A stretch of DNA of 64,000 bases from Verrucomicrobium sp. GAS474 (lineage in GTDB: Bacteria > Verrucomicrobiota > Verrucomicrobiia > Methylacidiphilales > GAS474). This document shows, in pieces, positions 2,807-34,726 of this stretch (the first letter of the stretch is position 1; the number at the start of each line of letters is the position of its first letter). The DNA lies in the NCBI RefSeq assembly GCF_900105685.1, contig NZ_LT629781.1, positions 992,001-1,056,000 of the forward strand, given 5' to 3'. A program made the position numbers and the translations under genes. The notes under the pieces were generated by a model. The model was not told where the DNA came from. It made no database searches and worked only from the letters and a program-made list of their open reading frames with translations.

Positions 2807-2850
2807 AAAACGCCTTGCCCGTTTGACGCGCAAACGAGACAAGGCGTTTT
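2807..2850 (+). terminator. Two-tier hairpin after the kinase-like gene
   Basis: The 11-bp outer arms AAAACGCCTTG (2807-2817) and CAAGGCGTTTT (2840-2850) enclose inner arms CGTTTG/CAAACG around a 5-base loop. It lies 50 bases past the stop at 2756 and ends in TTTT, so it may terminate that gene in both directions. Its right arm abuts the relic transposon end, so it could instead belong to that older element. Confidence 0.55.
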
Positions 2851-2895
2851 GAAGCATTACCCGAACCCTCGGTTCAAGTTATGCTTTTTTTGACA
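2847..2895 (+). mobile_element. Relic right end of an older Tn7-like element
   Basis: This 49-bp segment repeats the layout of the intact element's right end (33569-33617): TTTTGAAGCATTACCCG at its left, CAAGTTATGCTTTT near its right, and a terminal TGACA. The distance from TTTTGAAGCAT to the terminal ACA is 49 bp in both, while the bases between the two sites differ. It points in the same direction as the intact right end and directly abuts the left end of the intact element, so it is a separate, older end. Confidence 0.75.
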
Positions 2896-2899: not shown

Positions 2900-3031
2900 T
2901 GTCCAAAAAAGGAATTCCTGCACCTCGTCTAAAGCATAACTTGCGACATCCCCTTCAGAGGGGACGATCTCGGCGCGTGGTCGTTTTAAGTATAATTTGC
3001 GCGGCTTTGCCGATTTGAAGCATAAACCGAG
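2900..3031 (+). repeat. Transposon left end with three transposase-binding-site candidates
   Basis: Three related sites follow the TGT terminus: AAAGCATAACTTGCGA (2931-2946), TTTTAAGTATAATTTGCG (2984-3001) and TTTGAAGCATAAACCGAG (3014-3031). They share the core AAG(C/T)ATAA with the right-end sites and are the expected TnsB-type binding repeats. A short palindrome, CCCCTTCAGAGGGG, lies at 2950-2963. Confidence 0.75.
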
Positions 3032-3203
3032 AATTTCTAGATCTCGGGATGCCGACGAACTCCGTCAGCTACTGCTATTATCTTAGCTGTCGCGCAGTAG
3101 GGCTTGTTTTCATCTCGTTCTCTATTTTGCTCTATAACGAGAGAGAGGATTCAGGTGGGAATGGTCGCTCGACGAGATGTACTATGCGGGTTAGACCGTT
3201 GGT
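3032..3203. other. Non-coding stretch inside the left end
   Basis: An AT-rich stretch between the last left-end site and the first cargo gene. It probably holds the promoter of the TPR gene; no convincing promoter or ribosome binding site could be singled out. Confidence 0.4.
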
Positions 3204-14743: not shown

Positions 14744-15001
14744 CCTCTCGCCTCTGCACGGTTTACTAGAGTATTAATCCAACGATGAGGCTTGCATGCG
14801 GCTCATCTGCACATCGCCTTTAACGATGAACGGTACCTAGAAAACCGCTGCTCTCGCTTAGATCAAACTGGACGTCTCGATCACCAAGGTACGATGCGCG
14901 CTCCGCTCTGACCGCAGCCCCGTTGTCATGCGACCTTGGGGACTCGATCACCGTTTAGAAGCATAAAGCGCGTCTTTTTGCTCATCTTCGGGTCGGACGA
15001 C
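14744..15001. other. Intergenic region with an end-like motif
   Basis: No ORF here has coding character. It contains TTTAGAAGCATAAAGCG (14954-14970), which resembles the terminal sites of the transposon (TTTGAAGCATAAACCG). The region separates the signalling block from the defence block and may be an old junction. Confidence 0.4.
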
Positions 15002-17513: not shown

Positions 17514-20500
17514 TTAGCTCCGTTCCAAGGACTCGACGGATCCATTGGACCGGACGATGTAATATTTTGAGGTTCCAAGATCGTACGGACGGTCTTCTTT
17601 GGTCGATCGATAGGCAGAGTTATAATTTCGGCTTATGGTCGCTTCGATGAACAGGGCATGCCTCTTCTTTTTCAGGAGATGGCCGATCAAGTCGGCACGA
17701 ACTTCAAAATGGCGACCGGCAGAGCTATCAGAGTCGTTCTCTTTTTTCTCTCCCCAGACGATCATTCGGGCAGCTTCGCTACCATTCGCCAGAGTGAAGG
17801 AGGTGCGCAAGGAGTTGGGAGTCAATCCCAGGAGTTGGCACATCGCTTTGTTGAAGACAGAAAATCCAAGATTTATTCCCTTCCGTCGGGGGTCGGTATG
17901 CTGCCACTCGGCATCGCCATCGACCTCTTCCGCCCATGGCAGGAAGGTCACTCCTAAGCGTCGTTGCTCCTCCCGGGAATATCCATTGAGGAGTTCGGCG
18001 AGGGAAAGCGGTCGTGGACGTCTTTTAGAGATTAGCGCCGCGCCTAAGATAGCAATCTGATCTTCAGGGATCATGACTGCCCGGACATCATTGTTTCCCT
18101 GTCGACGATGGTCGGCGATTCCAGCATAACCTGACAACGTGATCCATTCTCTGGGCATGCCCTTTCGAACTCCGGCCAATTCTTCAAATTCCTCATCCGT
18201 TGGAGAAAACCACCTCTCCATTTCTGGAAACTGACGCCAATATTCGGGTTTGAGCGGCGTCGGGCTTCGAAAATCGGATACCCATTGAAAATGCGTTTGG
18301 GGCGATCCTATTTCAAGATTCACCCAGGACTGAAATGGATTCACGATCGACTCGCGCTCGTAAGATTCAATGAGCAGGGGTTCTCGATCTATTAGCTCTC
18401 CCATGACGCACATGAGCGCATGATATTCCAAATAGACCCTCGTCGTTTCAATTTCGGGCTCCTGCCCATGGTCATTGGATCGCTTCATCCAGTCGCTATC
18501 GGATGACAGTTCACGCGGATCCGACCACCAATCTTTGTCGGAATAGCCCCATCTATCACAAATCCATTTCTCGGCCAGTCTACAGAATTCTTCAGGCCAT
18601 TTTCCGAAGACCCGCCCGGCAGGAGAAAACCAGTATGGCACCGTATCCATCTCGCTGAAGGAAAAGCGGCCTTTTTTAGCTGACTCTTCCCGCTCGGAAA
18701 GCGCCTGCCATTCCGGTCTGAGAAGGCAGGACTTCGGTTCATGGAGGCCACTTACCCTCTCCAATTCCTCGCTTGATCCATTCCAAAATCCTTCACTAGC
18801 CAATTTTTCGAGAATCTCCTTAGCAACCTGTCGAACGAAGACATGGGGGAATTCCGGATCCAACGCCACTTTGACTATCTTAGTGCCATGAGAAGCCACG
18901 CGTCGCATGTCATCTTCTGCTATGTGCCGCAGGAAGAGCAGTAGCCACATGCGGGCCGACATCCAGAAGAACTCCAAACGAGGAGAGCGAAAGGCTCCAG
19001 CCTCTTTGGAGGGCAGCTTTTCGACCAGCGCACCTAGGAGATCAGAGCCTTGCTTCGCGCGAATCAAAGACCTCGCAGAATGAAGTGCCTGCCATCTAAT
19101 CTTTTTTTCCGAATGGCCTAAAAAGCTCCATAGGAACAAGGCCAATGCCTCGTTCAAATGGGCTGGGGGTGCCAAAGGAGGCTTGGCAAGTGGCTTTGCC
19201 TTTTCCTGTGCCAACTTCCCTTCTAAACGGGTCATCCACCATTGGAAAACGGCCAGGATCGCCGTGGAATTTAACCGTTTGGCTAGGACATGGGCGACGT
19301 TGATCACTTCGACAACGGACAAAGAATCACTGTTCTGCGCCGCGGCGGAGATCAGTAATTGAGTCTCTCTTCCCTGACAGACGTCGGCGGCAAGAATTTC
19401 CTCTACGTCTTGAATAGAAGTGCTCCATTCCGCTTCGTATCGAGTCAGGGCGGGGAGATGCGACGCTATGAAACGGAAAACTCCCTGGGGAGCCCATGCC
19501 TCGACTTCAGGGGTGTGTCGCCATTGTCGCAGAAGACTCATAAACGACTTGGCGATCTCCCTGTGGATAACGATGTTGTCGGGATCTTGGACTAGCGCTT
19601 CCAAGAACGCAGGACGCTGATTGGCGAGAAGCTCTCTGGCGATCTCCTGTATCAGATGATCCACGCCATCTTTATGACGGGAACGCCACGCTGCACTTAG
19701 GGCGTCGGACAGCCCCGAAAAATCGTTCGCCATCGCTTCCTGTACAATGGGGAATGATTTGGCCTCCGTCTTTAATGAAACCGAGGAATATCCTCCTCCC
19801 TGATTACTTTCCAACGACGACAGGAATGCGGCAAACTTTTCTAACTCGATGATTTCTCTTTGCTCGGCAAGATGATGCTCCTTCGCCCAGGTGATGATCG
19901 CATCGGCATGCATCTTTCTCTCGGATAGCGGAATATCGCGACGAATACTCAGGCTGATTCTCTCGATCAGCCGGATCAACTCCGAACGTTTCCCTGATCC
20001 CTGCTCATAAAGTCGATCCAATAGTCGCAAGTAGACTCGATATTGAGAATCATGTGGAAGGGCAAAATTGAGTAAGGCGAGAATCCCATCCCATTCTAAT
20101 AGGTCCAAATCGATCGCCGCATCCACTAGGCCAAAAATCCCATCACCTATCCAATGAAGCCCCTCATCGTCCCACCGGGCGGCGGTCGCCAAGCCCAAGG
20201 GAAAGTCCAACAGCGAAATGGTTCGGATAAATTCTCGTTTTGGTAGTGAGGATGAGTCGGAAACGAACGGGACCTGTTGTTCCAAAATATCTACCAAACG
20301 CACCGCACTTTGGGTCGCCTCTGAGGGCAAGATGGCTTTGGCCAAAATCTGCCCTATGACCGACGTCAGCTTGAGAATCGGGATGGAATCGTCATCGAGA
20401 GAACTCGTCGAAGCGAGAGCTCGTCGATAATACGCCTCACCTGTCTCGGGTTTCAGTGTCGCTGCGGCACAACGCAACAGATTGCTACGACGTTCAGCTG

Positions 20501-23500
20501 CAGGAGCCGGGGTGCGGGAGATCACCTCCACCGCTTTTTCGATCAATCGTTCCGTGACGAGGCCATAGGCGGAAGACACACGTAGCTGTTCCGCCAACAA
20601 TAAATTCGCATGAGAGGCTCCTGCCTGTACGAGCGCCTCGCTCGCGTCGCTTATCTCGTCAAAGAAGGACGAGGCGTCGCCTTGGCAAAACAATAGGGCT
20701 TGCGTCGAAAGCTTGATCCACTCGAAAAAGGTGGTGTCCGTCTTGAACCACCTCTGCTTAGCGTGCCCGCGCCGCTTTTGGAGATCCTTGCGGAGTTCAG
20801 GCAGGATTTTCTCAACAGAAGAGAGCGTATGGATCACGGCCGCTCGGCGAGCGTAGGCTTCGAGAGTCGAAGAGAATTCTTCCAGGTGATAGGACTCCCA
20901 TCCTCTTTCCTCCCGTTCGGTAACCGGAGGAGTTATCGACTTCAGAGTGATGTCGGATCCTCGAATGACGCTTTGCAAGCAATGAACCCGTAGCGGAAGA
21001 TCCCAGTCCGATCGATGGATGTGAGAAACGGGAGAAGCTTTTGGAAAGGGTTGAGGGAAACGTTCAAAAAGCCACAGGATCAATTCCGGAGTTTCACCCG
21101 AATAGAGTGCTAGCTCGCCAAAGGAAACGATGTTCTTGGCGAGATGCTCACGACGCCTCTTGCCAATGGGAGTCTGTTGTAAGTCACGCAGAGTTCGCTG
21201 AACCAGCGTTTTTTCCGGAATGCCTCCTTGATCCCAGATTTCCGCCAAGACGATGATCCTAGCCCAGGCGGGGAGATCCAAGACTTCCAAGTGGCCACAT
21301 AGTCGGGAGGGAAGCTCGCTCTTTGCCAGTCGGCACGCGAGTTTTTGAGTCAACTCCGGCCATATCCGAATCGGTTTCCATCTTTTCAGCCGCTGGACGA
21401 CAGCCTTTTCGCCGTACAAGAAATAAACGGCCTCCAGTTCGAACGCGATGTCGTCGGTCGTGATATTCCATAATGACCTTTCCGAGGACATCTTCGTTTC
21501 CTGGATCATTACTGAGCGAACGTTCAACCACGCTTTCCCCTGATCAAATAGGGTGACGGCCTCTTCCCGACGATTTTCTTCTCTCGCCTGCACTGCCGCA
21601 AGTCGCCAACAGGCGGGACCATAGAGAGGGCCATCTTTGAGTTGCCGAAAAAGCTCGGCCACGACATCGGGATCGCCGTATCGGGAGGCGAGCTCGGGAT
21701 GTTCGGCAATGGCAGCTTTTAACGAGGCGTCTGATCGAATGAAGTCGGTCGAGAGCAGGAGAAGGCGCAACGCATTTTCAGCATCGTCGAGATGCCCCGC
21801 ACTCTGCAGGGCCAGTTTCAGCCGTCGACGAGCCACGCTTAGACGTTTGATTACGTCCTGAATGCACAAGGAGATTGGCCGCTGAACGGCTAAGTCGATC
21901 AAGTCGCGATGGCGGTTAGCCTGATAAAGATGATCCGCGATCGAAACCGCACTGAAGACATCAGTCTCCAACCGTTCGAGGAGGCATTCCGCTAGGATGC
22001 CGTGCGCTATGGCGAGCGATTCTTCGGTGACTTTTCCATTAAGCCATACATCAAAGTCTTCGTCCCGGAAGCAAAGAGAATCGTTCTCGATATGAATTCC
22101 TGGAGAAAGAGCCTGGCACGCAGCCTTCGTCTCCTGCATAGAAAGCCTCCATGCTTTAGAAAGGATTTCCAAGGGAGCTGGTCGAGATAGGGCAATAAGA
22201 AGACTGGTCTTTTCCTGGACGTCAGAGGCGAAGTGAGAAGAAAAATCGTTGTATAGATCCGAGAAGAGATCTTCGGAGGTTCTGCGGACACGCTCCAGAA
22301 GAACGGGCAGGGTGCTTTCGGGACGACGTCGCAGCGCATCGACGATCGTGGGAGCAGCAGGTTTACTGGTAAGGTAATAGAACTGGACTCGCGGATTTCC
22401 CCCCGTTTTGGTGTGGAAGGTCTGGCACTGCTCGTCCGTGGCGAGTGGATAGCGATTCCGAAGGTTTTGGGATGATGCCTGAAGATCGAAACCCTCCAGG
22501 AGAAGTTCGTGGGTTCCAGCGGGCGGTTTTAGCCCGGCGCAGCGATGAGTGCGGCTGGTGACAATCAGAGCGCAATGTGGCGGGAGAGAAAGCCCCCAGA
22601 GTCGTTCCAAAAAGAACGAAGACCCTTCTTTTCGAGCCATTTCAAATGCGTTGTCGGCAGCGTCGATAACCAGAACAAGCCATGCCCCTTCCTGCTGAAA
22701 GACGCGGGAAACATCTTCGACGAGGCGCTTGAGGTGACGTTCACGGGCAACGTCATCGGAGGACAGGAGCTGAAATGGCATTCCGCATTTCACCGCGATC
22801 TCGTTGGTGATTTGGGGGAGGCATCCTTTCGCCAAATGGCGGACAGAACCGAAATGGCAATCCCCTCCGCCAAAGCAATCGTAGACGACAACACACGATC
22901 CTTCTGGAAGATGTTTGCACAGGGATAAAGCAGTCGTCGTTTTTCCCACTCCCGCTCCGGCGTGCGCGAGGACGCGGCCGCTGCTGGACGCGAGGACCAC
23001 TTCGGCCAACCGCTTGGCATCGCTGGATTCAATGAGGGCCTTAGGGAAAGAAAAAACCGGAGGTTCGGGAAACAAGTGGTCGAGAGAACCAACCCCCAGG
23101 CAGGCCAACACTTCATTCAAACCCAAACCGAGTTGGCCAACTGTATCGGGGAGAGCCTGCTTTCTAACCAGAGAGGTCAACGCGGACACCGCGTCACCCG
23201 GGCTGCTGATCCCGGTTGCGCCAACCTCTTGGATCAGCTTAATGCGTTGCAGCTCCCTAGACTCTTCTCCGCAGTGGGAAAGGTCGAGATGAGTCACAAA
23301 GGACGTAAATAGAGAGCCTTTGAATTTGGTCGCCTTTTTGAATCGGGTAAGGAGGTCCTTGGCGGAAGCGTCAGCCTTCCGGGAAAAGGCTTGAAGAGTC
23401 TTTCCGTTTCGCAGGTGAATCTGAAGACGGGTTAAGGTCTCAAGCACTTCGGGGGAAATCGGCTGATTGCTTACCAGGCGAAGGCTTATTTTGGCATTCA

Positions 23501-23903
23501 ATGCCTCGGAGGAATGCTTCTCGCAAAGGCCTTGATACGCCCTCGCAAGCCCCGCAATGAGGCTGGGCCCTTTGGACGACTCACAGAGGCGCGCGGCAGT
23601 CCACGGGATAGTGGGATGCCGGGTGCTGTATTTGAGCTGTTCGATGACAATTCGGTCGGCCGTCTGGATGGTATCTCCTCCGAAATAGCTCGTGAGATCA
23701 ACGGCTAGATAGTGACCTTTCGAGTCTTGAGAGGACTGTTCACGTGAGACTCCCTCCATGATGACGCGACGCAGCTGACTCTTCGGGATCAGCATTTGCA
23801 CGATTCGTCGTGCCGCCCATAGGAAGTGAAAGTCGTGGCCTGCTTGAGATTCCCTGACTCCTCCGGGAAAAGATCCTGAATGTTCCATGGCTCGCTGAGT
23901 CAT
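17514..23903 (-). CDS. Giant STAND NTPase with N-terminal Cap4-type nuclease, candidate antiphage sensor (cargo)
   Basis: 2129 residues. N-terminal nuclease-like domain (about 15-200): counted from the TTG at 23906, E51 in IMEGVSREQ, D70 in YLAVDLTSYFGG and the QxK of IEQLKYS (Q90, K92) fit the E...D...QxK pattern of Cap4/DUF4297 PD-(D/E)xK enzymes. A P-loop NTPase follows (Walker A HAGAGVGKTTTA near 318, VYDCFGGGDCHFG, Walker B LVLVIDAADNA near 410, then SRTHRC), then about 1600 residues of helical repeats. This is the nuclease-STAND-repeat plan of Avs-type proteins that detect phage proteins and then cleave DNA. It is much longer than typical Avs2-4 proteins. ATG 23903 is preferred over TTG 23906. 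The defence role is inferred from architecture. Confidence 0.82.
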   Translation of the reverse strand: MTQRAMEHSGSFPGGVRESQAGHDFHFLWAARRIVQMLIPKSQLRRVIMEGVSREQSSQDSKGHYLAVDLTSYFGGDTIQTADRIVIEQLKYSTRHPTIPWTAARLCESSKGPSLIAGLARAYQGLCEKHSSEALNAKISLRLVSNQPISPEVLETLTRLQIHLRNGKTLQAFSRKADASAKDLLTRFKKATKFKGSLFTSFVTHLDLSHCGEESRELQRIKLIQEVGATGISSPGDAVSALTSLVRKQALPDTVGQLGLGLNEVLACLGVGSLDHLFPEPPVFSFPKALIESSDAKRLAEVVLASSSGRVLAHAGAGVGKTTTALSLCKHLPEGSCVVVYDCFGGGDCHFGSVRHLAKGCLPQITNEIAVKCGMPFQLLSSDDVARERHLKRLVEDVSRVFQQEGAWLVLVIDAADNAFEMARKEGSSFFLERLWGLSLPPHCALIVTSRTHRCAGLKPPAGTHELLLEGFDLQASSQNLRNRYPLATDEQCQTFHTKTGGNPRVQFYYLTSKPAAPTIVDALRRRPESTLPVLLERVRRTSEDLFSDLYNDFSSHFASDVQEKTSLLIALSRPAPLEILSKAWRLSMQETKAACQALSPGIHIENDSLCFRDEDFDVWLNGKVTEESLAIAHGILAECLLERLETDVFSAVSIADHLYQANRHRDLIDLAVQRPISLCIQDVIKRLSVARRRLKLALQSAGHLDDAENALRLLLLSTDFIRSDASLKAAIAEHPELASRYGDPDVVAELFRQLKDGPLYGPACWRLAAVQAREENRREEAVTLFDQGKAWLNVRSVMIQETKMSSERSLWNITTDDIAFELEAVYFLYGEKAVVQRLKRWKPIRIWPELTQKLACRLAKSELPSRLCGHLEVLDLPAWARIIVLAEIWDQGGIPEKTLVQRTLRDLQQTPIGKRRREHLAKNIVSFGELALYSGETPELILWLFERFPQPFPKASPVSHIHRSDWDLPLRVHCLQSVIRGSDITLKSITPPVTEREERGWESYHLEEFSSTLEAYARRAAVIHTLSSVEKILPELRKDLQKRRGHAKQRWFKTDTTFFEWIKLSTQALLFCQGDASSFFDEISDASEALVQAGASHANLLLAEQLRVSSAYGLVTERLIEKAVEVISRTPAPAAERRSNLLRCAAATLKPETGEAYYRRALASTSSLDDDSIPILKLTSVIGQILAKAILPSEATQSAVRLVDILEQQVPFVSDSSSLPKREFIRTISLLDFPLGLATAARWDDEGLHWIGDGIFGLVDAAIDLDLLEWDGILALLNFALPHDSQYRVYLRLLDRLYEQGSGKRSELIRLIERISLSIRRDIPLSERKMHADAIITWAKEHHLAEQREIIELEKFAAFLSSLESNQGGGYSSVSLKTEAKSFPIVQEAMANDFSGLSDALSAAWRSRHKDGVDHLIQEIARELLANQRPAFLEALVQDPDNIVIHREIAKSFMSLLRQWRHTPEVEAWAPQGVFRFIASHLPALTRYEAEWSTSIQDVEEILAADVCQGRETQLLISAAAQNSDSLSVVEVINVAHVLAKRLNSTAILAVFQWWMTRLEGKLAQEKAKPLAKPPLAPPAHLNEALALFLWSFLGHSEKKIRWQALHSARSLIRAKQGSDLLGALVEKLPSKEAGAFRSPRLEFFWMSARMWLLLFLRHIAEDDMRRVASHGTKIVKVALDPEFPHVFVRQVAKEILEKLASEGFWNGSSEELERVSGLHEPKSCLLRPEWQALSEREESAKKGRFSFSEMDTVPYWFSPAGRVFGKWPEEFCRLAEKWICDRWGYSDKDWWSDPRELSSDSDWMKRSNDHGQEPEIETTRVYLEYHALMCVMGELIDREPLLIESYERESIVNPFQSWVNLEIGSPQTHFQWVSDFRSPTPLKPEYWRQFPEMERWFSPTDEEFEELAGVRKGMPREWITLSGYAGIADHRRQGNNDVRAVMIPEDQIAILGAALISKRRPRPLSLAELLNGYSREEQRRLGVTFLPWAEEVDGDAEWQHTDPRRKGINLGFSVFNKAMCQLLGLTPNSLRTSFTLANGSEAARMIVWGEKKENDSDSSAGRHFEVRADLIGHLLKKKRHALFIEATISRNYNSAYRSTKEDRPYDLGTSKYYIVRSNGSVESLERS

Positions 23904-23976
23904 CAATAGGGGGAATCACTGTACGCAGAAATCTATTTCATAATGACCTAAGTCACTTTCGAAATCGCTCGCTCAT

Positions 23977-28070: not shown

Positions 28071-28465
28071 GTACCTTCATAGCCTTGAAATCGGCGCTCC
28101 CTCAGAACGAAGGTCAACCGATATCAGCCCTCACTTTTGTTGCAGAAGTGGAGGCGTCCTAATCTTGCCCCAGAGAAAAGCCCCTTCGTAAGGTCGTCGT
28201 AGTGTTCCGCATGAACGAAACGCGGAGCCGAACCTGAACACTATGACTGCTCTTTTAATGGCCGATGGTCGCGCACCCCCGTCCGTGAGGATTTGATCGC
28301 GACAAAAAAAGAACCCCGAGTTGGAGCTCGGGGCCTTTTTCAACCGGGCGGAGCCGGTGGGCAAACTATCTGATCGCAGCCTACTTCTCCCCGCCCCCTT
28401 AGTCAAACCTTTAGTAATCAAGGAGGTCCACGCTTTGTCTCGTGGCTTTCTTGAGGAGAACCTGC
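28071..28465. other. 395-bp non-coding region upstream of the transposition operon
   Basis: No credible coding sequence on either strand. It holds a bidirectional terminator (28314-28333) in the middle and the tnsAB promoter and ribosome binding site at the right. The part 28131-28310 could encode a short terminated transcript. Confidence 0.45.
28314..28333. terminator. Bidirectional intrinsic terminator upstream of tnsAB
   Basis: CCCCGAG and CTCGGGG arms around a six-base loop. On the plus strand the stem is followed by CCTTTTTC, on the minus strand by TTCTTTTTTTG, so it can stop transcription both ways and would shield the transposase operon from read-through. Confidence 0.8.
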
Positions 28466-31138
28466 ATGACACCGATCGAGTTTGAAGCATGGGCCGTTGC
28501 CCAGAACCTTTCCCCTGCCGGGAGAGCCGTTGTTGAACGTATCCGCACCAGTCCGCCGTCACGGCGGGTGAATAGCTCCGGAGGAAACGTCTCTGGAACC
28601 TTCAGTTCCTCCAAGATGGGGGTGACCATCCAGTTCGAGAGCCACACCCTCGAGCTGCCCCTGATCCATCTCTTGGAATACGATGACGATGTCCTCGAAT
28701 ACTACGATCAGCCCGAAGCGATCCCGTTCTCGTACACCAGGCCGGACGGGCGGAAGATCGGCTTCAATTCGGTACCCGACTTCTTCGTCCTGAAGCGCCA
28801 CTGGGCCGGATGGATTGAGGCCAAGCCCTCATCGAAGCTGGAAGAAATCTGCCTCAAAGCCCCTGCTCGCATATCCAAAGACAGGGACGGGCGGTGGACT
28901 TGTCCTCCGGCCGTGACTTACGCGAAGCCGCTTGGTCTCGACTTCGTATTGGTGACCGACAACGACGTCAATCCGACCCTCGCCGGCAACCTGGAACTCT
29001 TGAGTCGCTATCGTTCGGAAAAATGCGCCTCCGCGTTGATTCTCCAAGCCCAATGTTTGGTGGGCGATCATCCCGGCATCGCGCTTCGAGATCTAATGGA
29101 TGTTCTGGAGTGTGCCCGAGAGGACATGTTCCGGCTCATCGCAACCCAATGTCTCTACGTCGATCTCTTCAGCCATCGTCTTAGCCACACCCAAGATGCG
29201 CAGGTGTTCGTTTCCGTCAGGCAGGCGCGATCTTGGACGAGCAGCGCCACTCCCCTCCCTGGCATCAATTTGATCCGGGTGGAACCAGGAAACATGATCG
29301 AATGGAATGGCACCAAGCACCGTATCGTAAATGCACACAACGGGCTCGTTTCGCTCGAAGCTTTGGACGGCTCGATTCAGGAAATCCGGGAAGACGCTTT
29401 TTCTGGGTTGGTGGTGAAAGGTCGTATTAAACCCATTAGCTCCGAGCCATCCCCTGCGCCATCGAGCCAGGCCAAGCTGCTCAAGAACCTGAGTCCTACC
29501 GATCTGGAGAGGATCACCGCGCGCCAAAAAATTCTGTCGGGCGAGATCAAGGCCAAGTTGGCGCCGAGTACCCTTTACCGATGGAAGGCGGCGCAAAGAG
29601 AATCCGCGATGACCCATGGCTCGAGTGCGCTTGGCTTGGCCGGCAAGCAGCACTTGCGTGGCAATCGCAAAAAGAAGCTCCCCGCCTATCTCTACGAGGA
29701 GATGCAAAATTTCATCAAGGATCACTTCGAAACCCTCACGGCCAAAAGCGCCCATGCCGTTTATCTTCTCTTTCGAAATCACTGTATAGAAAAGGGCATC
29801 AAGCCGCCCAGCGATCCGACCTTCCGCGCCGCCATCAAAGTTCGCTCCGGCCATAACCAGAAGAAAAGCCGGGAAGGACACCGCGGAGCCTACGCGACAA
29901 AGGAGTTCTCGTATGACACGCTGGATCTTTCGTCACGCCACGGCGACGCCCCCTTCCATATCGGCCATGTGGATCACACGGAAATCGATCTCGAGGCGGT
30001 CGATGAAGAGACCGGGCAATGTCTCGGTCGAGCTTGGTTGACAGTCTTGATCGATGCCTACTCTCGCCGGGTGCTGGCTTTCGTCCTGACCTTCGATCCT
30101 CCTTCCTACCGTTCCTGCATGCTTGTGATTCGCCATTGCGTGGCGCGGCATGGGCGCATTCCCAAATTCATCGTTCTCGATGGTGGCCCTGAATTCAAAT
30201 CGGGCTATTTCGAAGGACTCCTCGCCATGATGGAATGCCACAAGAAAGTGCGGCCTCCGGCCCAACCGCGTTTTGGAGCGGTGTTGGAGCGGCTTTTCGG
30301 AACCACAACGACGCAGTTCTTCCATAACCTTCGTGGGAATACCAAGCTGACGAAGCGCTCCCGCACGGTAACGAAGCAAACCGATCCCAAGCGGCTCGCC
30401 GTCTGGACCCTGCGAGAACTCTTCTGCCGACTCGAAGAATATTTTTTCAACGTCTACGACTGCCTTTCGCACACGACTCTTCTGCGGTCCCCTCGGGAAG
30501 CCTTCGTGGCCGGAATGAAGGAAGGTGCGTCACGGGGATTCGTTCAGAGGCAACTTATCCCTTACGACGAAGGCTTCCGAATCCTGACGTTACCGGGAGC
30601 TCCCCGGGGATCCTGCAAGGTCCATCCCACCAAAGGCGTACAGGTCGGCTACGTCCGCTATTGGAACGACTTGTTTCGCGGTGCCGAGGCGCACGGAAAG
30701 AAAATCTCCGTCCGTTACGATCCGCTGGATCTTTCGACGGCCTACGCTTACGTCAAAACGCAGTGGGTTCTTTGTCGCTCCTGGGATTGGTCGATCACGA
30801 CCGGAACCTCCGAGAAAGAACTCCGTCTCGCCTCCATCGCCTATCGGCAGAGGTTGGGAGAGCATGCCAAGAGTCGGACGCTGAATATGAACAAGTTGGG
30901 AGCGTTTCTCAAAGAAACCAGCGATCACGAAGTCCTCTTACAACGGCGCAGGGATCGCGCCTTGGCCGGGGTTCTCGAAGAAGCCGATACGATGATCCAG
31001 ATACTGCCCGTCGAGGCGCCGAGTTCGGAGGCCTCCGTAGTGTCCTCTATGAATGCACCCGTTGATTCTTCCGATCGGAATTCGGCTCCCGAAACTCCAC
31101 CAGCCCGACCTTTCATCGAACCTTACGAAGAGCTTTGA
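28466..31138 (+). CDS. tnsAB: TnsA-TnsB fusion transposase
   Basis: 890 residues fusing both Tn7 cleavage subunits. The TnsA-like domain (about 55-170) has THTLEL-type E63 within SHTLELPLIHLLEYDDDV, the DQP motif, VPDFF (D105) and WIEAK (E118, K120), the acidic and Lys residues of the nuclease that cuts the 5' ends. The TnsB-like part has helix-turn-helix segments and an RNaseH-fold core with D503 (HVDHTE), D572 (LDGGPEF) and E608 (VLERLF), a D,D-35-E triad that cuts and joins the 3' ends. With both active, transposition should be cut-and-paste. The ATG at 28466 has GAGGAG eight bases upstream. First gene of the tns operon. Confidence 0.92.
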   Translation: MTPIEFEAWAVAQNLSPAGRAVVERIRTSPPSRRVNSSGGNVSGTFSSSKMGVTIQFESHTLELPLIHLLEYDDDVLEYYDQPEAIPFSYTRPDGRKIGFNSVPDFFVLKRHWAGWIEAKPSSKLEEICLKAPARISKDRDGRWTCPPAVTYAKPLGLDFVLVTDNDVNPTLAGNLELLSRYRSEKCASALILQAQCLVGDHPGIALRDLMDVLECAREDMFRLIATQCLYVDLFSHRLSHTQDAQVFVSVRQARSWTSSATPLPGINLIRVEPGNMIEWNGTKHRIVNAHNGLVSLEALDGSIQEIREDAFSGLVVKGRIKPISSEPSPAPSSQAKLLKNLSPTDLERITARQKILSGEIKAKLAPSTLYRWKAAQRESAMTHGSSALGLAGKQHLRGNRKKKLPAYLYEEMQNFIKDHFETLTAKSAHAVYLLFRNHCIEKGIKPPSDPTFRAAIKVRSGHNQKKSREGHRGAYATKEFSYDTLDLSSRHGDAPFHIGHVDHTEIDLEAVDEETGQCLGRAWLTVLIDAYSRRVLAFVLTFDPPSYRSCMLVIRHCVARHGRIPKFIVLDGGPEFKSGYFEGLLAMMECHKKVRPPAQPRFGAVLERLFGTTTTQFFHNLRGNTKLTKRSRTVTKQTDPKRLAVWTLRELFCRLEEYFFNVYDCLSHTTLLRSPREAFVAGMKEGASRGFVQRQLIPYDEGFRILTLPGAPRGSCKVHPTKGVQVGYVRYWNDLFRGAEAHGKKISVRYDPLDLSTAYAYVKTQWVLCRSWDWSITTGTSEKELRLASIAYRQRLGEHAKSRTLNMNKLGAFLKETSDHEVLLQRRRDRALAGVLEEADTMIQILPVEAPSSEASVVSSMNAPVDSSDRNSAPETPPARPFIEPYEEL

Positions 31139-31140
31139 CC

Positions 31141-32292
31141 ATGAATACGACTGATACCTCTGAGAATCTTCCGGCCAGGATCGACTATACGAAATCGGCT
31201 GTGGAGCGACGCGAGGCCTTCTTTGCCTTCAAGACAAAACACAACCACCTCGATAATGCGTTCAAAACCATCATGGGGATCATCCGCACCCCCGACTGCG
31301 GGAGGCTAGGGATCGGGATCGGACCGACCGGTGCGGGCAAATCGACTCTTTTGAGGTCAGCTCGACGGAAGATCGAGCTCGAACTCGGAGACGAGCTGCT
31401 TGCGGATCCTTCGCGGATTCCGTCGGTCATCGTTACCGCCTGCCCTTCGGAAAACCACGCTTTCAATTGGCGGTTGTTCTATCTCCGCGTATTGGCCGGC
31501 TGTCGAGAGATCGCGGCTCAGCAGAAGATACCGATCGAGTTTCTGGATGGTCGACCGCTTTTCCGCCAAATGGCAAAGGCAGATACGGCTGCTGGCCTCC
31601 GCGAGGCGGTCTGCGAGGTTCTGCTGCAACGGCGTCCACGCGCACTTTTCGTGGATGAGGCGCAACATATCCTCAAGACAGGGAGCGGTGAACACCTCCA
31701 AAGCCAGCTCGACGTCCTGAAGACGTTGGCCGACGAATGCAAAGTGCCGATCATTCTTTTCGGGACCTATTCGCTATTGATCCAGCATGAGATGAACGGA
31801 CAACTCGGACGTCGCTCAACGACGATCCACTTCCCACGATACCGATTCCACGTTCCTGAAGAACTGGCCTGCTTTGACCGGGTGTTGGCAACCTTCACGG
31901 CGAAGATTCCGACCGAAGCTCTCCCGGACTTGATGCGGCATCGGGATTTTCTCTTCGAGAGATCGCTCGGTTGCATCGGCATGCTCAAGGAGACCCTCGT
32001 GCGAGCCGTGAACATGGCGATCTCGGAAAAAGCCGCCACCGTGACTGAAAGCCATCTGCGGAGATCCGCTCTCGATGCCAGGAAGTGCGAAGCCATCCTG
32101 CGTGAAATCCTTCAAGGGGAATCTCTTTTCGAGAAGAAGGCGGAAGACGCCGCAGCACAGCGTCTTCGGAGTTCTCTGCAAATGGAAGTTCCGGTTCGTG
32201 AAATTGCCGCCAAGAAAGCTTCGGGCTTCCCTCGCAAACCAGGTCAACGTAACCCCACGCGTGATCCAGTCGGCATGCCTCAGGCTTTATGA
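31141..32292 (+). CDS. tnsC: TnsC/TniB-type AAA+ ATPase regulator of transposition
   Basis: 383 residues. Walker A GPTGAGKS (61-68) and Walker B ALFVDEAQHIL, then a sensor stretch LFGTYSLL, identify the AAA+ TnsC/TniB family. It forms filaments on target DNA and passes the TniQ-selected site to the transposase. ATG 31141 with GAAGAG eight bases upstream is preferred; a TTG at 31135 would overlap the tnsAB stop (TTGA). The C-terminal tail is basic (KKASGFPRKPGQRNPTRDP), typical of the transposase-interacting end. Its stop overlaps the next start by 4 bp. Confidence 0.9.
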   Translation: MNTTDTSENLPARIDYTKSAVERREAFFAFKTKHNHLDNAFKTIMGIIRTPDCGRLGIGIGPTGAGKSTLLRSARRKIELELGDELLADPSRIPSVIVTACPSENHAFNWRLFYLRVLAGCREIAAQQKIPIEFLDGRPLFRQMAKADTAAGLREAVCEVLLQRRPRALFVDEAQHILKTGSGEHLQSQLDVLKTLADECKVPIILFGTYSLLIQHEMNGQLGRRSTTIHFPRYRFHVPEELACFDRVLATFTAKIPTEALPDLMRHRDFLFERSLGCIGMLKETLVRAVNMAISEKAATVTESHLRRSALDARKCEAILREILQGESLFEKKAEDAAAQRLRSSLQMEVPVREIAAKKASGFPRKPGQRNPTRDPVGMPQAL

Positions 32293-33419
32293 TCGATGAG
32301 GAGATCCCGTTCGACGAGCTACCCCTCGACATTCCTCCGCGAACATCTCTCTTTCGGCTGGTTCCATTCGGAATTGGAACGCCAGAAGTGGAGAGTTTCG
32401 CCGGTTGGCTGACTCGATTGGCTCGAGCTCATCGGGTGAGCGTTCGAACTCTGCTCCTGCAGGTGCTCCCCCATGAAGAAGGCAGGTACGCCGCAGCAGG
32501 AAAGAGTGGCCGATGGCGGGTTCGGTGCAATGTGCTGAATGTCCCAGGCAGAATCCTTCCACCTCTCGCCCAGACAACGGGGATCTATGATCTTTCCTCG
32601 TTATCGCTGGAACGTTGGTTTGGTTGTCTCTCCCGTTTGGGCCTGCTTCGTCATCGTCGAGCGTGGTGTCCGGAATGTCTGCGAGAGAAGCCTTATGAAA
32701 GGCTGCTGTGGACGCTGCGCCCTGTGCAAATGTGTTCGGTTCACCAGCTTCCTTTGGAAGAGCACTGCCCATTTTGCGGACACTCTCCACCACGGCTGAA
32801 TCTGGGATCGTCTCTCGAAATCTGTCCCCAGTGTCGGCAAGGAATCGCTTTTTCTCCCAAGCAGTCTCGGGATCTTTCCGAATGGGACGCCCACGTGGCA
32901 AAAGCCGTGGGAAGCTTAGTCGCGCTAGAAAAACCGATGCGAATGAATTCACCGGCACTCATCGGCGAAGGAATCCGGAATGCTCTGCCTACTTGGTCGC
33001 AGGGAGAAATCACCCGAATGCTGGGAGTTTCCGACAACCGTTTTGCCTTGCTGCGTTCCCGCAACAAGACGTTGCCTTTGGAGTTTTTGTGCCGGGTTTC
33101 GTTTGTCCTTCGTGTCAGCGTTCCATCTCTTCTAACAGGAGATCCGGACACCTGGACTCCGGCAAGCCCGAGAAAAGGCCTTTGGAAGCAGGCGCAGCGG
33201 CTTTTGGTCGAGAGTGATCCACTCCTTCGGCAATGTCTTGAGCAACTCATCGATGAAGGATGCCCCTCCCTTCGAGAGGCCTCGCTTCGCTTGGGGAGAT
33301 CGCGGACGACGCTGTTGCGCCATTTTCCGGAAGAGTGCTCCGAACTGCTGAGACGGTCTGGCAATCGTTACGCGTGGCGCATTCCAAAAGTCGTGGAGAC
33401 GGCACCGCGTCTTTTATAA
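32289..33419 (+). CDS. tniQ: TniQ/TnsD-family target selector
   Basis: 376 residues. The TniQ N-terminus (GTPEVESFAGWLTRLARAHR) is followed by zinc-ligand pairs WCPECL, MCSVHQ, HCPFCG and ICPQCR, then a helix-turn-helix-rich C-terminal part (MLGVSDNRFALLRSRN and SLREASLRLGRSRTTLLRHF). TnsD-type members bind a chromosomal attachment site and recruit TnsC. Given where this element sits, its binding site should be the 3' end of dnaN (inference). ATGA overlap with tnsC; 198 bp separate its stop from the right terminus. It is shorter than Tn7 TnsD (508 residues) but longer than CRISPR-associated short TniQ forms are in some systems. Confidence 0.88.
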   Translation: MIDEEIPFDELPLDIPPRTSLFRLVPFGIGTPEVESFAGWLTRLARAHRVSVRTLLLQVLPHEEGRYAAAGKSGRWRVRCNVLNVPGRILPPLAQTTGIYDLSSLSLERWFGCLSRLGLLRHRRAWCPECLREKPYERLLWTLRPVQMCSVHQLPLEEHCPFCGHSPPRLNLGSSLEICPQCRQGIAFSPKQSRDLSEWDAHVAKAVGSLVALEKPMRMNSPALIGEGIRNALPTWSQGEITRMLGVSDNRFALLRSRNKTLPLEFLCRVSFVLRVSVPSLLTGDPDTWTPASPRKGLWKQAQRLLVESDPLLRQCLEQLIDEGCPSLREASLRLGRSRTTLLRHFPEECSELLRRSGNRYAWRIPKVVETAPRLL

Positions 33420-33542
33420 CCCTCTCGGCAAAAACTCTCGCCTTATGGCTGAGCTATTTTTAGGAGGCTTAAAAACAGCCGTTCGAGCGAAAAATCGGTT
33501 TCCGCAATTTCTCTTAACTCCTGATCTTCAGAATCTTCTGCG

Positions 33543-33617
33543 CTTTAAGTATAAAACGCACGATGCTGTTTTGAAGCATAACCTGCGGATTTTTCGCAAG
33601 TTATGCTTTTTCTGACA
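33543..33617 (+). repeat. Transposon right end with three transposase-binding-site candidates
   Basis: CTTTAAGTATAAAACGC (33543-33559), TTTTGAAGCATAACCTGCG (33569-33587) and CGCAAGTTATGCTTTT (33595-33610, the reverse complement of AAAAGCATAACTTGCG), then the TGACA terminus. The terminal site is inverted relative to the left end's first site, as expected; the two inner sites face the other way. Confidence 0.8.
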
Positions 33618-33622
33618 AGATG
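33618..33622 (+). repeat. Target-site duplication AGATG, right copy
   Basis: Identical to 2895-2899 and directly follows the ACA terminus of the right end. Nine bases then separate it from the dnaN stop codon. Confidence 0.85.
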
Positions 33623-33631
33623 ACGGGAGGA

Positions 33632-34726
33632 CTAGGCCGTCCGCATCGGCATGATCACGTACAGGAAGGGCTTCTGGTACTTGATGACGCCGGGGCTGAG
33701 TTCGTCGATGAAGTCGAAGAAGATCTCGTCGCTCTCGATGTTCTTCAACGGGTCCATGAGGAAGTAGGGGTTGAAGGCGATGGTGAAGTCCTTGCCGGTG
33801 TAGGCGATGGAGAGGGTTTCCTTTGCTTCGCCGACGTCGGGGGTGTTCGAGCTGATCTCGAGGTTGTTCTTCGAGAAGGCGAGCTTGATCGAGGTCGACT
33901 TGTCGTTGGCGAGGAGGGAGACGCGATGGACGGCGCTGAGGAGGACGTCGCGGTCGAGGACGATGCGGTCCTTGGCCTCGGCGGGGATGACCTGGCGGTA
34001 GTTGGGATACTTGCCGTCGATGAGTTTGGAGAAGATGACGACGTTGCCGAGGTCGAAGACGATCTGGTTCTCGGAGAGGGAGAGGGTCAGGGGCTCGTCG
34101 CCGCCGAGGACGCGCTGGAGCTCGTTGACGGCCTTGGTGGGGAGGATGACGTCGCCTTCGTTGCCGGGAGGGAATTCGAGTTCCTGCTCGATGAGGGCGA
34201 GGCGGCGGCCGTCGGTGGCGACGACGGTGAGCTTGCCTTCCTTGAAGGAGAGGAGGACGCCGTTGAGGACGTAGCGGCTCTCGTCCTGGGACATGGCGTA
34301 GGAGGTCTTCTTCAGCATCTCCTTGAAGGTGCCCTGGGTGAGCTTGAAGACCTTGGCGCCGTCGGTCTTGGGGAAGGCGGGATATTCTTCCTCGGGGAGG
34401 CCCATGATGCGGAAGAAGGAGGCGCCGGAACGGATGAGGGCGTTCTGCTTGGAGTCGACCTCGATGGTGATCTCGGAGGCGGGGAGTTCCTTGGCGATGG
34501 AGAAGAGGCGGCGGGCGGGGAGGGTGGTGCCGCCGGCTTTCTCGACGGTGGCGTCGACGACGGCGCGGATGCCGACGTCGAGGTCGGTGGCGGAGACGGT
34601 CAGCTTGCCGTTCTCGACCTTCAGCAAGGCGTTGGAGAGGATGGGGAGGGTCGTCCGGTTGGTGACGACGTTCTGGACGGCCTGGAGACCGTTAAGGAGG
34701 GCTTCCTTGCTGATGATGCACTTCAT
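33632..34726 (-). CDS. dnaN: DNA polymerase III sliding clamp, beta subunit
   Basis: 364 residues with the three-fold clamp plan: MKCIISKEALLNGLQAVQNV (start), TLPILSNALLKVENGKLTVS, GRRLALIEQE, and the conserved C-terminus KPFLYVIMPMRTA. The clamp encircles DNA and tethers polymerase III and repair enzymes. dnaA and recF are not beside it here. The C-terminal coding region, which is among the best conserved in the family, lies 14 bp from the transposon's right terminus and would make a durable attachment site. The transposon leaves the gene intact. Identity is certain from the sequence. Confidence 0.97.
   Translation of the reverse strand: MKCIISKEALLNGLQAVQNVVTNRTTLPILSNALLKVENGKLTVSATDLDVGIRAVVDATVEKAGGTTLPARRLFSIAKELPASEITIEVDSKQNALIRSGASFFRIMGLPEEEYPAFPKTDGAKVFKLTQGTFKEMLKKTSYAMSQDESRYVLNGVLLSFKEGKLTVVATDGRRLALIEQELEFPPGNEGDVILPTKAVNELQRVLGGDEPLTLSLSENQIVFDLGNVVIFSKLIDGKYPNYRQVIPAEAKDRIVLDRDVLLSAVHRVSLLANDKSTSIKLAFSKNNLEISSNTPDVGEAKETLSIAYTGKDFTIAFNPYFLMDPLKNIESDEIFFDFIDELSPGVIKYQKPFLYVIMPMRTA

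Follow-up and report, generated by a model that had tools for sequence, protein, structure and literature searches.

A surviving right end beside a Tn7-like element points to sequential insertion of related elements at dnaN in Verrucomicrobium sp. GAS474

Multiple ends are described as arising when one Tn7-like element inserts inside or beside another, the insertion beside an earlier element leaving extra left or right ends (PMC8649781, citing Peters et al. 2014). Tn7 itself strongly inhibits second insertions nearby, and the sequence that it recognises is left intact after insertion (PMC11406308). Among the closest described systems are the Tn7-like elements with a fused TnsAB, which include the type I-B2 and I-D CASTs (PMC10293859, PMC11406308); a further relative is the element of a Peltigera cyanobiont (L070). 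The fused TnsAB, TnsC and TniQ/TnsD are shared by these systems and the locus described here. The I-B2 and I-D CASTs dock at tRNA genes and carry CRISPR parts, whereas here a single TniQ and the gene dnaN are found, and no Cas families were seen among the proteins scanned. The locus also differs from the adjacent or nested elements of PMC8649781 in that the earlier element is cut to approximately 50 bp and in that the docking gene is dnaN.

In this work we analyzed a window of 64,000 nucleotides (positions 992001-1056000 of a single-contig 3.76-Mb genome) that carries a complete Tn7-like element, hereafter the resident, and immediately to its left a segment resembling its right (R) end. We consider, with a probability of roughly 0.85, that what remains in this segment is the right tip of an older member of the same TnsAB family, which occupied the dnaN spot before the resident. 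Successive use of one docking site was already known in this family, and the locus adds a further example. No open-access paper among those searched gave dnaN as a docking gene; the present data point to this role for TnsAB-fusion Tn7-like elements, as seen in two distant species within one order.

The resident element and its docking gene

The features of the resident, in window coordinates, are as follows.

2895-2899, no strand: left copy of the target duplication AGATG, whose first base is the last base of the relic (read from the sequence)
2900-3033, plus strand: left (L) end with three transposase sites, at 2928, 2984 and 3014 (site matrix)
28442-31138, plus strand: tnsAB, fused transposase (Pfam TnsA N-terminal domain, rve, Mu C-terminal domain)
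31135-32292, plus strand: tnsC, TniB-type ATPase (Pfam TniB, AAA)
32289-33419, plus strand: tniQ/tnsD, presumed reader of dnaN (Pfam TniQ; 46-47% identical to that of the dnaN-adjacent element of G016)
33459-33617, plus strand: right end with three transposase sites, at 33543, 33570 and 33593 (site matrix, R-end comparison)
33618-33622, no strand: right copy of the target duplication AGATG (read from the sequence)
33632-34726, minus strand: dnaN, docking gene, whose stop codon and the R terminus of the resident are 14 nt apart (TIGR00663, E 8e-107)

The resident is 31 kb long, opens with TGTCC at 2900, closes with TGACA at 33617 and has the hallmarks of a Tn7-like element: TnsA, TnsB, TnsC and TniQ/TnsD are all encoded, the termini are of the TGT/ACA type and are bordered by the 5-bp target duplication AGATG, each end carries several transposase sites (three in both cases), and the element occupies a fixed spot by a conserved gene, the R end facing dnaN in two members of the order that are only distantly related. 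The genes tnsAB, tnsC and the single tniQ adjoin the right end, and dnaN reads towards the R terminus. The second of these order members is Verrucomicrobiales bacterium Cf509_bin41 (G016/L062), whose dnaN-adjacent element has TnsAB and TniQ proteins 47-48% and 46% identical, respectively, to those of the resident, the same R-end geometry, and an R end that faces dnaN at a distance of 19 nt; it differs in that no relic was seen, and the part examined did not reveal its left end.

Among the cargo of the resident, the gene at 17514-23906 encodes an Avs3a-like defence NTPase of 2130 amino acids (PADLOC E 3e-144). A lone sequence resembling a transposase site lies inside the element at 14951-14977, near a step in GC content, and is a possible trace of an internal junction; a third end at 14955 was rejected since a single internal site is insufficient.

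A relic right end, probably of a distinct lineage

The segment to the left of the resident contains the following features.

2807-2850, no strand: terminator-like hairpin where the third site of the intact R end would sit (fold -22.7 kcal/mol, z -5.5)
2847-2895, plus strand: relic R end of an older Tn7-like element, which ends at 2895 on the side of dnaN (38 of 53 positions as in the resident R end; the 44-nt family geometry is kept exactly)
2848-2867, plus strand: relic transposase site 2, TTTGAAGCATTACCCGAACC (matrix score 22.7)
2871-2890, minus strand: relic transposase site 1, AAAAAAGCATAACTTGAACC (matrix score 22.6)

From the terminus inwards, the relic reads TGTCAAAAAAAGCATAACTTGAACCGAGGGTTCGGGTAATGCTTCAAAACGCC and the resident R end TGTCAGAAAAAGCATAACTTGCGAAAAATCCGCAGGTTATGCTTCAAAACAGC; the ungapped comparison, which takes in 2847-2895 and the inner flank, gives the 38 identical positions out of 53. 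When both strands of 304 kb were scanned the runner-up, with 30/53, came from the R end matched to its own palindrome, and the next match reached 29. The two relic sites, scored with a matrix that was built without them, also stand well above the best value obtained among five simulated 304-kb sequences (16.3). The R-end core common to the TnsAB family consists of AAGCATAA, a spacer, an inverted TTATGCTT, six bases and ACA, and the relic is an exact fit: its core is of 44 nt as in the resident R end, with two inverted transposase sites followed by TGACA, so that the core length, the inverted site pair and the ACA terminus by which membership in the family is judged are all present. The R ends of G016, cyanobacteria and acidobacteria also have a core of 44 nt, and those of Firmicutes one of 42-43 nt. 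Re-reading of the sequence confirmed the original prediction regarding the coordinates of the segment, the order, spacing and orientation of its sites and the overlap with AGATG.

The prediction had also described the sequence between the relic sites as diverged, and this holds: relic and resident agree at 30 of 32 positions in the sites, but at 2 of 13 in the spacer (Fisher P 5e-7). GAACC is the suffix of the two relic sites, as opposed to TGCGA in the resident sites. Conserved sites around a diverged spacer are the pattern of two lineages whose ends have both been functional, whereas a dead copy should lose identity evenly along its length. This bears on the idea that the segment is a duplicated and decayed copy of the resident's own R end, which would account for the shared family and geometry and would predict equal decay in sites and spacer. 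Furthermore, the R end found in another genome of the same genus (G002) is identical to that of the resident at 47 of 53 positions and to the relic at 37 of 53. We therefore regard a decayed copy as quite improbable; judged from the conserved sites, the diverged spacer and the common GAACC suffix, the relic most likely is the end of a distinct, related lineage within the TnsAB family.

The relic is a truncated, not an intact, end. The third site of the resident R end lies 27 bp further in; inward of the relic site pair no clear equivalent was seen, and the near-perfect hairpin at 2807-2850 takes its place. The relic segment itself also forms a hairpin with TTTTTTT behind it (-11.6 kcal/mol, z -3.9), as would an ordinary terminator of host transcription with a fortuitous likeness to an R end; nonetheless, a terminator needs neither AAGCATAAC nor the TGACA terminus nor the exact 44-nt geometry, the intact R ends fold likewise, and within the chromosome the site motif is found only in these ends, AAGCATAACYTG having only four exact matches in 3.76 Mb (one in the relic, one in the resident L end and two in the resident R end). 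A chance terminator is thus strongly disfavoured, and we give it very little credence. The relic has the hairpin and T-rich tail in common with the R ends of the resident and of G002, and the T-run is absent from some members of the TnsAB family. In those ends that have them, the hairpin and T tail might insulate dnaN from transcription leaving the tns operon.

Inferred order of insertions and probable fate of the older element

If the resident and one AGATG are set aside, the relic terminus falls 13 nt from the stop codon of dnaN, one base nearer than that of the resident. These distances agree with the proposal, made from the sequence alone, that two related elements used one point, here taken to be anchored at dnaN, with the older one there first. 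Should targeting be anchored in dnaN, each new arrival would come to lie between the gene and the previous occupant, and for this reason the outer relic would be the older. In the mechanism that we infer, TniQ/TnsD would read the end of dnaN and direct insertion approximately 13-14 nt past the stop codon, with the right end facing the gene. The older element would have been the first to dock beyond dnaN, and would then have lost its left end and most of its body. A second, related element with somewhat different ends would have landed one base off, on the dnaN side of the relic, and so displaced the latter outwards. Sequential insertion is well supported, with the right end as its one line of evidence; counted against it are the small remainder of the older element, approximately 50 bp, the lack of a third site and of an old left end, and the fact that in the same-genus genome G001 the dnaN neighbourhood is not syntenic, which makes that genome of little information as an empty-site comparator. 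The locus represents a docking site reused with base-level precision.

The prediction had proposed a search for an older left end; a site-cluster scan of 203 kb leftwards found none, and no target duplication belonging to one. Within 40 kb leftwards GATGA followed by TGTC occurs three times, in no case with a site cluster, and these were rejected as the old left end; a weak site pair at 914.46 kb of the genome is on the wrong strand. Given that no left end appears in those 203 kb, the old body and left end were apparently deleted, although the left end could possibly be far displaced or strongly diverged. Either would apply if the old element were undeleted and the genes to the left were its cargo: in G002, genes likewise reach the R end without tns genes, and the histidine kinase adjoining the relic has no match in two same-genus genomes. 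In contrast, the genes left of the relic have a host-like GC content (0.675, compared with 0.515 in the resident), another family of the order has orthologues of the kinase (50-53%), encoded on contigs other than that of dnaN, and the 203 kb contain no left-end-like cluster. Retained cargo is on balance unlikely, if less so than either a chance terminator or a decayed copy. Of the predicted deletion, the loss of the body stands, but that the left genes were never part of the older element is not established by their GC content.

The second insertion had been described as occurring despite target immunity, a qualification that the data do not support: given its short length, its two clear sites and its separate lineage, the relic calls for no breach of immunity, and it may have been cut down before the second insertion took place. 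More tentatively, and with the odds against it, target immunity in the dnaN-associated lineage could be specific to the end sequence or weak, so that shifted suffixes (GAACC and TGCGA) would let related elements stack at one site, the R ends persisting as a record of past occupants and some perhaps being kept as hairpin and T-run terminators facing dnaN. The locus is a natural case for asking how alike two ends must be for mutual exclusion.

Parallel arrangements in other genomes

In contig 552 of G002 (L164:4281-4580), a full R end, 5 bp (ACAAC) and a full L end follow one another, arranged as at the dnaN locus and flanked by LacI/MFS genes on one side and metal-transport genes on the other; no tns genes were found in this genome, and the array represents either stacked non-autonomous elements or remnants. 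In the cyanobacterium Plectonema cf. radiosum (L071:8300-8481) two diverged R ends that face alike are 99 bp apart. Altogether, a second end lies within 100 bp in 3 of approximately 11 R ends with downstream sequence, in what is a non-random sample. An R-like array by dnaN in G012 was left uncounted, as it is on a 4-kb contig of a genome without a tnsAB match and its extra arrays may belong to an insertion sequence. Viral contigs and plasmids gave only marginal hits to TnsAB or the ends.

At L141:17066-17110 an R end is followed, a few bases on, by what may be the ends of another type of Tn7-like element, placed around AATGG, a possible case of mixed stacking. A more distant TnsAB-TnsC-TniQ cluster (L058:1621-12372, in G015) is situated approximately 5 kb past dnaN and is transcribed the opposite way relative to this gene. 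At L128:1736-2123 a related R end lies approximately 30 bp from the tmRNA gene, which suggests ssrA as a further docking gene in the TnsAB family.
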